A stretch of 64,000 nucleotides of DNA from Bacteroidota bacterium (lineage in GTDB: Bacteria; Bacteroidota; Ignavibacteria; Tepidaquicellales; Tepidaquicellaceae). Shown piece after piece: positions 9,090 to 59,690 of the stretch (position 1 is the first letter of the stretch; the number at the start of each line of letters is the position of its first letter). Location: positions 249,283 through 313,282 of the forward strand of contig JAFDZP010000001.1 in the NCBI GenBank assembly GCA_018266835.1, given 5' to 3'. The notes beneath the pieces are model-generated. The model was given only the letters and a program-made list of their open reading frames with translations. It was not told where the DNA came from and did no database searches. Both the position numbers and the translations under genes were made by a program.

Positions 9090-10256
9090 TTGAACTTAAC
9101 AGAAAAAGAAAAAAAACATTTTTTCCAGACTTATAAACGTCTTCCTCTTATTGTTGAAAAAGGGGAAGGCGTTTTTTTATATACCGATAAAGGGAAATTC
9201 CTGGATATGTTCGGCGGACTTGCCGTAAATGTACTCGGCTATAACAATGCAAAAGTAAACGATGCAATTATTGCGCAAATACATAAATACAATCACCTCT
9301 CAAATAATTTTTATCAGGAAACACAGATAGATTTTGCAGAGAAATTATTAAGATTATCAGGATTTGATAGAATATTTCTTTCTTCCACAGGAACAGAAGC
9401 TATTGAAGGCGCAATAAAATTAGCAAGAAAATATTTTAACTCACATACTAAAACTGAGTTAATTTCCTTCAAAGGCGGCTTTCACGGTCGCACATACGGA
9501 AGCTTATCACTCACTACAAAAGAAAAATACAGAAAAGGATTTGAACCGCTTCTGCCAAATGTACATCACTTATTATACAATTCAGTTGACGATTTAAAAC
9601 GAACAGTGAACGAAAACACTGCGGCAGTTTTTCTTGAATTCATTCAAGGAGAAGGCGGCATTTACACTGCTGACTGCGTATTTGTCGATACGCTGAACGA
9701 ACTTAAAGCGAAGTATGGGTTTTTAATTGTCGCTGACTGCATTCAATGCGGTGCAGGGCGAACGGGAAAATTTTTATCTATACAACATTACAAAGCTGAT
9801 GTAGATATATGCGTAACTGCAAAAGGTATCGGCGGAGGACTGCCGGTCTCAGCAGTTATGGCTAAAGAATATCTCAATGACTGTTTTCACGCAGGTGAAC
9901 ACGGAACAACTTTCGGGGGAAATCCCGTGGCATGCGCAGCCGGCATTGCCACTCTGGATGAAATCGAAAGTCACGCAATGAAGAACGCTGAAATCGTTGG
10001 CAAATATCTGAAAGATGAGATCTTAAATTTACAAAAGAAATATCCCAATAAAATAAAAGAAGTGAGAGGAATGGGACTGATGCTGGGAGTTGAGCTCGGT
10101 GAAGTTATTCCTGAAAAAGTTGTTGAAAATTTATTTGAGAGGAAAGTTTTAGTAAATCTTACCAATAATAACTGCGTGCGACTCCTGCCACCGTTGATTC
10201 TATCGCAGGAAGAAGCAGATATTTTCCTTAAGGCGTTTGAAGAGAGTCTGTCTTAA
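9090..10256 (+). CDS. Class-III aminotransferase, acetylornithine/ornithine type
   Basis: This is a PLP-dependent fold-type I aminotransferase of 388 residues. The PLP-binding lysine is about residue 245 in VTAKGIGGGLPVSA. Other family blocks are SSTGTEAIEGAIKLARKY near 94, GGFHGRTYGSLSLT near 128, and TTFGGNPVACAAG near 274. The closest named families are acetylornithine aminotransferase (ArgD) and ornithine aminotransferase (RocD); sequence alone does not separate them. The start is a TTG 15 bases after coaE. It converges on a carbamoyltransferase gene and an amidinohydrolase-like gene, which suggests arginine or ornithine metabolism, but no other arg gene is in the window. Confidence 0.88.
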   Translation: MNLTEKEKKHFFQTYKRLPLIVEKGEGVFLYTDKGKFLDMFGGLAVNVLGYNNAKVNDAIIAQIHKYNHLSNNFYQETQIDFAEKLLRLSGFDRIFLSSTGTEAIEGAIKLARKYFNSHTKTELISFKGGFHGRTYGSLSLTTKEKYRKGFEPLLPNVHHLLYNSVDDLKRTVNENTAAVFLEFIQGEGGIYTADCVFVDTLNELKAKYGFLIVADCIQCGAGRTGKFLSIQHYKADVDICVTAKGIGGGLPVSAVMAKEYLNDCFHAGEHGTTFGGNPVACAAGIATLDEIESHAMKNAEIVGKYLKDEILNLQKKYPNKIKEVRGMGLMLGVELGEVIPEKVVENLFERKVLVNLTNNNCVRLLPPLILSQEEADIFLKAFEESLS

Positions 10257-10315
10257 TTCTGAATTCAGAATGCAGAATTCAAAATGCTGAATTGAACTCA
10301 TAACTCATAACTTCA
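10253..10315. repeat. 7-nt-period degenerate tandem array (9 heptads) at a convergent junction
   Basis: From 10253 the sequence divides into nine consecutive 7-mers: TTAATTC, TGAATTC, AGAATGC, AGAATTC, AAAATGC, TGAATTG, AACTCAT, AACTCAT, AACTTCA. The perfect palindrome TTCTGAATTCAGAA at 10257-10270 lies inside. The array spans the stop codon of the aminotransferase and runs into the last codons of the carbamoyltransferase on the other strand. Confidence 0.8.
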
Positions 10316-58090: not shown

Positions 58091-59611
58091 ATGAAAAAAC
58101 TAAAGTACTTATTTCTTTTCATTTTGACCTCATTTGCTCTACAATCGAACTTCGCAGCAACTGATACCTTAAAAGTAATGGATTGGAATATATTGAATTT
58201 TGCAGGAACCGATACTTCCCGCGTACAGTATTACAGAACAGTTATCAGCTCCGTATCACCTGATATTTTTGTTTGTCAGGAAATTAACGGTACAGCCGCA
58301 AACAGAGTACTATTCAGACAGGTGTTTGAAGCATTTGCTCCGGGAATTTACGATACAGTTACATTCGTTGACGGACCTGACTCAGATAATCTTCTCTTCT
58401 TCAAAAAATCCAAAGCTTCATTTATTTCAAATACTGCTCATCATACTGAACTTAGAGATATATCTGAGTTTAAGATGTATATTCCGTATATACTTGATAC
58501 TGTGAGGTTTTTCAGCTGTCACTTAAAGGCAAGCACAGGAACCAGCAATGAAGACCAGCGTGGAAGGGAAGCAGATACGCTAAGATATTTCACAAATCAG
58601 CTGCCTGCCGGAAAATATTTTATGCTTATGGGTGATTTTAATTTTTATAAAGCTTCTGAACCTGCATATATCAGATTACTTGCAGCAGGAGGAATTGACG
58701 GTAAGTTTAACGACCCCATTACAGGTATGACGGGTAACTGGAATTCGGTTGCAGCATACTCACAATATTATACACAGTCTCCGCGTGTGCGTTCATTCGG
58801 CGGCGGCGCAACAGGAGGTATGGATGACAGGTTTGATTTAATACTGCACTCCAATGCATGTCTCAATAGCGCAAATAAATTTTACTATGTACCAAACTCA
58901 CATATAGCATACGGAAATGACGGCAATCATCTTAATGACTCGATTAATAAAATGCCAAACACAGCAGTTTCAGCATCGGTTGCTGACGGAATTCATTATG
59001 CTTCTGACCATATTCCGGTAATATCCAGGTTTGTTTTAAACAATCAGATTGCGCCTGTTGAGCTTTCATCTTTTGTCTCAATTGTTAATGCAAATAATGT
59101 TGAGCTTAAATGGAGCACTGTCTCTGAATTAAATAATTCAGGATTTGAAATTGAAAGAAAATCGGTTTCGGAATGGCAAAAAATTGCTTTCGTTGCAGGT
59201 AATGGAACATCAAATATATCTAACACTTACGCATTTACAGATAAAGCTTTGCAAAGCGGAAGCTATCAATACAGATTAAAACAAATTGACTACAACGGTA
59301 ACTATGAATATTTTAATCTGAACTCTGAAGTACACATAGGTACTCCTGATAAATTTTCGTTATTACAGAATTATCCGAATCCATTCAATCCATCGACTTC
59401 AATTAATTTTAATATTCCTGCTGACGGATTTGTAAGCCTTGCTATATATGATTTAAGCGGTAAAGAAGTTATGAACGTACTACAGGAAAATAAAACTGCA
59501 GGATATTACTCAGTAAATATAAATGCCTCTGCATTGCCTTCAGGAACATATTTCTATCGTATATCGGCAGGGGATTTTACTGCAGTGAGAAAAATGGTGC
59601 TACTTAAATAG
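58091..59611 (+). CDS. T9SS-exported endonuclease/exonuclease/phosphatase family protein (copy 2)
   Basis: This 506-residue tandem paralogue has the same EEP active site: MDWNILNFAG near 31, CQEINGTAAN, GDFNFY and SDHIPVISRF. After the EEP domain (about 25-318) it adds a module of about 90 residues (VELSSFVSIVNANNVELKWSTVSELNNSG, split here; FEIERK, YRLKQIDYNGNYEYF) that copy 1 lacks, matching an Fn3-like surface domain found in Bacteroidota exported proteins. The T9SS domain starts at QNYPNPFNPSTSINFNI near 425. A heptad palindrome with the stop codon follows. Confidence 0.9.
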   Translation: MKKLKYLFLFILTSFALQSNFAATDTLKVMDWNILNFAGTDTSRVQYYRTVISSVSPDIFVCQEINGTAANRVLFRQVFEAFAPGIYDTVTFVDGPDSDNLLFFKKSKASFISNTAHHTELRDISEFKMYIPYILDTVRFFSCHLKASTGTSNEDQRGREADTLRYFTNQLPAGKYFMLMGDFNFYKASEPAYIRLLAAGGIDGKFNDPITGMTGNWNSVAAYSQYYTQSPRVRSFGGGATGGMDDRFDLILHSNACLNSANKFYYVPNSHIAYGNDGNHLNDSINKMPNTAVSASVADGIHYASDHIPVISRFVLNNQIAPVELSSFVSIVNANNVELKWSTVSELNNSGFEIERKSVSEWQKIAFVAGNGTSNISNTYAFTDKALQSGSYQYRLKQIDYNGNYEYFNLNSEVHIGTPDKFSLLQNYPNPFNPSTSINFNIPADGFVSLAIYDLSGKEVMNVLQENKTAGYYSVNINASALPSGTYFYRISAGDFTAVRKMVLLK

Positions 59612-59690
59612 TTTTTCGTTTATTGTTTTTCGTTAATCGTTGTTCGTAATTTTCTTTAAAACGGACAACGATTAACCAATAACGACTAAC
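59612..59690. repeat. Palindromic heptad array at the convergent nuclease / kinase junction
   Basis: The left array (59612-59646) is TTTTTCG, TTTATTG, TTTTTCG, TTAATCG, TTGTTCG; the right array (59663-59690) is GGACAAC, GATTAAC, CAATAAC, GACTAAC. They are approximate inverted repeats. The left array begins directly after the stop codon of the rightward nuclease gene. The stop of the leftward kinase gene (59686-59688) lies inside the right array. Confidence 0.88.

Follow-up and report, generated by a model that had tools for sequence, protein, structure and literature searches.

Heptameric tandem arrays at gene ends in a Bacteroidota genome and their relation to other bacterial heptamers

Heptameric arrays of the window

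A stretch of 64,000 nucleotides from a Bacteroidota genome (the window) was analysed with regard to intergenic DNA that divides into consecutive units of seven bases. A preliminary description, made from the letters alone, had named eight such loci (10253, 15407, 16185, 50547, 52695, 54849, 57813 and 59612), and all the heptamer words that it listed are present there. As it had said, six of the eight arrays abut a stop codon or come immediately after one, the exceptions being 15407 and 16185. Five proteins of the window carry Por_Secre_tail, the sorting domain of the type IX secretion system (T9SS), which we take to be a mark of the Bacteroidota group. Behind three T9SS genes the order is stop codon, heptamer array and intrinsic-type terminator (Table 1).

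To obtain a statistic for each locus, the best lag-7 segment of the gap was compared to 2000 Markov shuffles of the same gap, so that the lowest attainable value is p=0.0005. Five of the eight loci reach this floor singly (10253, 15407, 52695, 54849, 57813). The remaining three are weak singly, with p between 0.022 and 0.055, and if any lag from 4 to 13 is permitted, p becomes 0.15 for 59612, 0.27 for 50547 and 0.36 for 16185. Locus 50547 gains support because its place, word type and downstream terminator match those of its neighbour 54849, and locus 59612 because its inverted pair folds into a stem of 16 bp (z -5.4). If the window is regarded as a whole, five segments with a score of at least 12 occur at lag 7 compared to 0.2 in shuffles; the harmonics 14 and 21 yield five and four segments, and all remaining lags from 4 to 20 yield none or one each. 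The heptamer arrays of the window are genuine, and the earlier observation is overall partly confirmed.

Table 1. Heptamer arrays and associated hairpins in the window (p, lag-7 shuffle test of the locus; z, folding relative to shuffles).
Feature	Position	Strand	p	Fold z	Context
Two adjoining arrays, AATTCAG-type (10251-10293) and AACTCAT x2.6 (10295-10312)	10251..10312	.	0.0005		between convergent genes
Perfect (GAGTTAT)4.3 array	15407..15436	+	0.0005		84 nt past stop of 12764-15322
Degenerate AACTCGT/AATTCGT array	16185..16216	.	0.055		weak singly
Intrinsic-terminator-like hairpin	50514..50542	-		-4.6 (50490-50576)	downstream of 50546..50573 array
Degenerate TATTGAG-type array	50546..50573	-	0.044		between stop of T9SS gene 50573-52576(-) and terminator
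Intrinsic-terminator-like hairpin	52660..52689	-		-2.1	downstream of 52695..52723 array
AGTTTCA/AATTTCA array	52695..52723	-	0.0005		immediately past TAG stop of T9SS gene 52722-54731(-)
Intrinsic-terminator-like hairpin	54815..54844	-		-5.1	downstream of 54847..54876 array
AGTATTG array	54847..54876	-	0.0005		immediately past TAG stop of T9SS gene 54875-56104(-)
Left arm of inverted heptamer pair, TTATTAG/TTATTCG-type units	57814..57842	+		-2.4	5 nt past stop of 56537-57808
Right arm and continuation, AACGAAT/AACGAGC/AACGAAC units	57862..57920	+	0.0005		
Left arm, TCGTTTN-type units	59611..59647	+	0.022		immediately past stop of 58091-59611
Right arm, AACGANT/AACCANT units	59661..59690	+			extends to stop of convergent gene 59686-61512(-)

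At 10253 the array encodes the final residues of an OTCase-like gene, 10279-11352(-). The stem at 59612 is formed by positions 59632-59647, fully paired with 59661-59676 (one G-U), and lies between two convergent stop codons. The preliminary description had overlooked the inverted arms at both 57813 and 59612, as well as the strand polarity described below.

Period, placement and polarity

The own-genome sample comprised the window and 56 further stretches, i.e. 1.184 Mb of a genome of 4.008 Mb (approximately 35% GC). Genes were called by our own codon-usage script, and we set the thresholds ourselves (score 12; 10 or 30 nt); lag 7 stays on top with score cut-offs of 9, 15 and 20 as well. Two stretches (L040, L042) had been selected via a repeat-search match and hold five of the arrays, and a third (L033) adjoins such a match. 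The sample contains 66 arrays at lag 7 and the shuffle none; other lags yield 1 to 16 segments, except 14 (46) and 21 (31). The lag-7 signal is thus present elsewhere in the genome.

Only two of the 66 arrays lie within genes, so that they are not equally common there, and two more at stretch edges were left unclassified. If contacts within 10 nt are counted, 22 are found at 3' ends (placement-null mean 5.3, maximum 11 of 300) and 7 at 5' ends (null 5.8), where the convergent array at 10251 was scored for both flanking genes; divergent gaps hold 5 arrays compared to 15.7 expected. In five of the 22 contacts at 3' ends the open reading frame (ORF) ends at least 7 nt inside the array, and there the contact is therefore created by the array itself. 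The enrichment at 3' over 5' ends, on which the preliminary description had laid weight, holds for this genome; Nostoc and one Flavobacterium genome (G125) are enriched at 5' ends also.

Its statement that the period and not the word is conserved was half right, as the 66 arrays use just 25 distinct words, most commonly AATAATT (14), AACTCAT (7) and AATTATG (6). We considered this restricted spectrum as a sign of copying: 152 coincident pairs of arrays were found compared to 33 for permuted words, yet squared intergenic 7-mer frequencies already yield 90 (maximum 188), and the comparison is not decisive. A possible framework A-N-T within the units, noted post hoc, is enriched in the words of the own genome and of Nostoc (p 0.013 or less) but not in Flavobacterium (p 0.82-0.97); its A and T are the least variable positions within cyanobacterial arrays among the listed (AACTCAT)5 matches described below. 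Arrays are densest in two stretches, L214 and L215 (G000:C5:420001-440000 and 500001-520000), with 11 and 8 of the 66; many of these are AATAATT, some with inverted partners.

The mean identity between units drops from distance 1 to distance 6, from 0.87 (15 arrays) to 0.77 (7) in the own genome, from 0.86 (27) to 0.72 (20) in Nostoc, and from 0.93 (177) to 0.84 (136) in the (AACTCAT)5 loci among the matches listed. Growth by heptamers, which the preliminary description had considered, is borne out in outline, since adjacent units are the most alike and, in Flavobacterium and one Nostoc group, orthologous gaps shift in length by multiples of seven.

A bias towards one strand is also present. 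If arrays within 30 nt of a stop are regarded, the sense strand is richer in G than in C in 50 cases and poorer in 8, pooled over four genome sets (own 13 to 3, the sister genome G001 8 to 0, Nostoc 22 to 5, Flavobacterium 7 to 0). Arrays with equal G and C were excluded (at 3' ends, 4 in the own genome and 4 in Nostoc), and two arrays of G029, both with G>C, were left unpooled. Array-free gaps reveal no such lean (235 to 261 pooled); for the own genome the background is 105 to 136, which differs from the 13 to 3 with p=0.004. The polarity was discovered in the (AACTCAT)5 loci, the own genome and G001, and stretches of Nostoc and Flavobacterium obtained later served as its test. Within the discovery set (matches listed, own genome and G001), AACTCAT arrays at 3' ends appear as ATGAGTT on the sense strand in 24 of 25 tandem cases and in 19 of 20 convergent ones, compared to 10 of 46 tandem arrays away from a stop. 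Transcription direction was rejected as the cause, as in tandem as well as convergent gaps the G-richer side is read inward at either boundary; among the matches listed, this inward reading also holds in the few divergent gaps of (AACTCAT)5 loci. We claim the polarity for 3' ends only, because the array-free background at the 5' boundaries of the own genome and of Flavobacterium leans the same way.

G001, a sister genome from the same genus, shares its gene order with nearly the whole window: in its sampled stretches 47 of 55 called genes match with at least 60% identity and two have no match. Heptamer units are kept at one of the seven loci with a counterpart, namely 57813, where weak inverted units with changed words remain (lag-7 scores 7.5 and 7). 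The 10253 junction of G001 lacks the array, with its two genes contiguous or overlapping; a non-heptameric spacer with a different terminator stands at 54849, and arrays are absent at 59612 and behind the single counterpart of 50573/52722. The gap corresponding to 15407 and 16185 measures approximately 85 nt, without arrays and without the NUDIX gene. Such absence and word change within synteny indicate a fast turnover of the arrays. A genome of the same family (G025) contained no array in 100 kb.

The NUDIX gene (15634-16071) is flanked by six copies of a CCGACTNNNNNCCGACTTTT-like element at 15448-16254, three per side, and gene and copies together resemble an inserted cassette.

Heptamers in other bacteria and in the literature

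At least 118 stretches of a species-genome collection (Bacteroidota, Cyanobacteria and others) contain the exact 35-base sequence (AACTCAT)5. Grouped by title, the matches listed comprise 23 cyanobacterial stretches, 13 others, some of which are bins that possibly contain stray contigs, and 82 remaining, mostly Bacteroidota. With the seed word excluded, 3' contacts among these matches amount to 26 compared to 3.7 expected in cyanobacteria, 22 compared to 3.7 in the Bacteroidota set and 5 compared to 0.8 in the others. The gene-end arrangement is found again in distant bacteria, with different words. In 400 kb of Nostoc we counted 88 arrays with 30 contacts at 3' ends (null 4.5); the 80 arrays that lie in gaps use 34 words. 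In 200 kb of Flavobacterium G125 there are 16 arrays with 5 contacts at each end type (null approximately 1.1), and G110 has 5 arrays. The four-unit word is carried by 3 of the phylum's 118 genomes, and 4 of 118 carry its reversed control; the own genome is in both sets, and therefore no single word marks the phenomenon. Among 10 genomes that had been chosen for carrying the word, all contained the three-unit word and none its reversed control.

Orthologous gaps allow the arrays to be followed between species. At one stop-abutting site in Flavobacterium, approximately 7, 3 and 3 units of AACTCAT are present in three of seven readable loci, the query genome being among the three; three further loci were unreadable. 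A convergent Nostoc gap was read in 35 of 53 genomes (15 returned as loci and 20 chosen from the listed matches). Its words differ between genomes (AGTTATG, AGTGGGG, AGTGCTG, AGTAATG, AGCAGGG): mostly AGTNNNG units follow the left stop, the middle varies between and within species, and AACTCCT- or AATTACG-type units precede the right stop. In L307, L310, L314 and L316 the left array is absent by eye. Period and gene-end position mostly persist at this gap despite the change of word. Among gaps with one type of right arm, 13 of 16 lengths (59 to 115 nt) equal 3 modulo 7, and moduli 5, 6, 8 and 9 yield at most 5 of 16 in this group.

Two further observations concern Nostoc. A repeat of approximately 100 bp lies beside the gap (L133, about 6122-6225), with matches of approximately 89-98% identity at other Nostoc places. 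In several gaps of L268 the start codon can be in register with the right arm, where units ending in ATGACAA continue into the gene; the stop codon can likewise be in register with the left arm.

Rehm et al. 2015 (PMC4692102) describe heptameric simple-sequence repeats (SSRs), GGGAATC and GGGGA(C/T)T, in Xanthomonas and Nostoc. Nearly the entire arrangement is described there: the Xanthomonas repeats lie closer to the upstream ORF, and the G-rich heptamers occupy the coding strand downstream or the non-coding strand upstream of ORFs, are depleted between divergent ORFs, form inverted pairs in Xanthomonas and differ among related species. Our arrays resemble them in following the upstream ORF with the G-richer strand as the coding strand, and differ in that their words are AT-rich and many per genome. 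Moreover, GGG or CCC occurs in 0 of 66 own arrays and in 29 of 88 Nostoc consensus words. The same paper cites heptameric intergenic SSRs as over-represented in bacteria, with which the dominance of period 7 and the two intragenic arrays among 66 are in agreement, and an idea that links the number seven to the DNA segment held by a polymerase.

Cyanobacterial short tandemly repeated repetitive (STRR) sequences, for which PMC2670836 cites Mazel 1990, are reported there, for Nostoc, to form 7-bp hairpins, both between hupS and hupL and close to a 3' end. Both kinds consist of tandem 7-bp units between genes, some of them near 3' ends, with several words. They differ in that our host is not taken for a cyanobacterium. 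Hairpins made of arrays occur at two of the eight window loci (59612, 57813), and the own genome has no excess of structure over array-free tandem gaps. The preliminary description had regarded word diversity and gene-end position as unlike STRR; this distinction is not supported, as Nostoc itself has both.

The TAACTGA direct repeats of Beggiatoaceae, also present in Cyanobacteria and five Bacteroidetes (MacGregor 2015, PMC4679880), are intergenic heptamers too, but represent one word and in the type genome usually immediately precede start codons. Two Cyanothece strains differ there mostly by indels in steps of 7 nt. TAACTGA dimers do not occur in the 1.184 Mb of the own genome. Passages of PMC6749651, PMC4060949, PMC4748335 and PMC4046671 add nothing on gene-end placement. 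In the literature, mostly without subscription papers, we found no statement that period, place and polarity persist while the word is swapped at one orthologous gap, and we make no claim of priority.

Stop codons, RNA structure and the origin of the arrays

The preliminary description had proposed that the arrays are frame-independent translation stoppers, because nearly every unit or its complement contains a stop trinucleotide. The latter is literally true and at the same time uninformative: of the 25 distinct words, 96% contain a stop on one strand or the other, compared to 89% after letter permutation (p=0.125), and 36% contain stops on both strands, compared to 41% (p=0.79); the number of stops per word is 1.44 compared to 1.42 (p=0.49). 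If each array is counted, the content is modestly raised (any strand 98% compared to 93%, p=0.025; both strands 64% compared to 51%, p=0.0085; stops per word 1.86 compared to 1.58, with 0 of 2000 permutations as high), because a few repeated words carry the excess. Stops in all three frames are present in 15 of the 22 own 3'-abutting contacts on the sense strand and equally in 15 on the antisense strand. In favor of the proposal, the sense strand leads in the (AACTCAT)5 loci among the matches listed, with 82 compared to 62 of 95 (cyanobacteria 21 and 17 of 29, others 4 and 1 of 6, Bacteroidota-type 57 and 44 of 60, where most arrays counted are the word ATGAGTT), and genes end inside arrays in the five own contacts mentioned above. 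These array-supplied stops read as a consequence of arrays that extend to the coding end. Since, in addition, no sense stop is contained in the arrays at 52695 and L035:4988, and many arrays sit in the middle of a gap or at gene starts, we regard a stopper role as very unlikely; for the own genome it is rejected by word permutation, strand comparison and frame counts.

A selected structure of the 3' untranslated region, in which arrays would serve as stem-loop arms or spacers behind stops for termination, protection of the mRNA 3' end or cistron coupling, appears possible, though the balance tips against it as the general explanation. Apart from the folds at 59612 and 57813 (Table 1 and above), the rest of an array's own gap supplies a reverse-complement match more frequently than other gaps do (Nostoc 38% compared to 5%, own genome 28% compared to 7%). 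In Nostoc tandem gaps the G-arm precedes the C-arm in 13 of 13 pairs, and the presence of arrays goes with better folding (mean z -2.1, n=27, compared to -1.2, n=45, in gaps without them). Across the 35 Nostoc orthologs the arms covary, with a mean of 9.96 within compared to 8.11 between genomes (p=0.0004, relatedness being ignored in the test), which could also arise from the copying of one arm. Transcript stability, coupling and termination have been proposed for such repeats before (PMC2670836). The own genome argues otherwise: tandem gaps with arrays are not better folded (z -1.2, n=15) than those without (-1.9, n=45), the arm order is 5 to 3, direct matches within the gap are raised about like inverted ones (21% compared to 4%), 15407 and 10253 fold like shuffles (z -0.6 each), and the T9SS loci have ordinary terminators besides their arrays. 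RNA structure was rejected as a general rule for this genome; a 3' stem-loop role at some loci is possible from the sequences.

A quadruplex or i-motif, as proposed for GGGAATC and GGGGA(C/T)T, is favored by the position and strand preference that our arrays share with those repeats (PMC4692102), but without a single GGG or CCC the canonical form is excluded for the own genome and the idea is hardly credible. It is unlikely in our judgment that the arrays represent a mobile element, one spread by horizontal transfer, or the product of a dedicated heptamer-writing template. Such an origin would fit the identical (AACTCAT)5 across Bacteroidota, Cyanobacteria and others, the three-unit word in its preselected genomes and the 10253 junction, where an array would not fit in the sister genome. 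Against it, the distribution is patchy, with the four-unit word at the level of its reversed control; some odd carriers are metagenome bins with possible stray contigs, and neighbouring units are alike, as local duplication predicts.

We consider the arrays to be heptameric SSRs, i.e. microsatellites, akin to cyanobacterial STRR and to the Xanthomonas SSRs, with a probability of roughly two in three. They are a further member of the known heptamer class, with AT-rich words that lack the G-tract, an ordinary kind of repeat that is underexplained. Replication slippage or unequal exchange would add and remove units; the likeness of neighbouring units and the length change in steps of seven in some relatives point to such gain and loss of single units, and sequence comparison of the relatives supports growth in heptamer steps. 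In some gaps one arm may be copied from the other via a hairpin, leading to inverted pairs. Selection would clear arrays from coding DNA and promoter regions, so that they remain in the slack past the stop, in the window often before a terminator, and could extend up to the stop because a change of seven bases inside the ORF shifts the frame. Any function would be secondary and on the RNA level, as a 3' stem-loop or spacer.

Several points weigh against this interpretation. Plain slippage does not explain why 7 is favored over 5, 6, 8 or 9, nor the polarity at stops in view of the balanced background, nor the exact words common to several phyla among the matches listed. Tolerance behind stops is not the whole story, because 5' ends are enriched too (Nostoc 21 compared to 4.9, Flavobacterium G125 5 compared to 1.2; among the listed (AACTCAT)5 matches, 23 compared to 9.8 for the Bacteroidota-type and 5 compared to 0.7 for the 13 others). 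The remaining 19 of the 35 Nostoc gaps do not agree on one residue modulo 7 (the commonest is found in 7 of 19), the two groups were defined post hoc, and the species are related so that the counts are not independent. The comparison covered species representatives, and no change of unit number was observed within one species. A bolder proposal, which we consider improbable, is that a word-independent and period-7-specific process common to unrelated bacteria builds and rewrites arrays at coding edges. It would keep the period, the register and the inward polarity, with the G-richer strand read away from the stop, and swap the word between close relatives, and would consist in active heptad-stepping synthesis or repair on gene-end hairpins and not in ordinary slippage.

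The bacterial preference for seven-base repeats has been noted before without an explanation. The own genome follows the placement and strand rule of the published G-rich heptamers with words unable to form quadruplexes, and one explanation is thereby eliminated. The Nostoc gap in its 35 genomes represents a natural series that separates period, position and word, and by which the slippage idea becomes directly testable.

Two groups of neighbouring genes remain to be mentioned. The three T9SS-type genes at 50573-56104 are consecutive, and two of them (50573-52576 and 52722-54731) share the same best match in G001, so that one is probably a tandem duplicate. At 59686-63468 on the minus strand, two neighbouring genes with TPR plus histidine-kinase parts match the same stretch of G001 with 33% and 63% identity.

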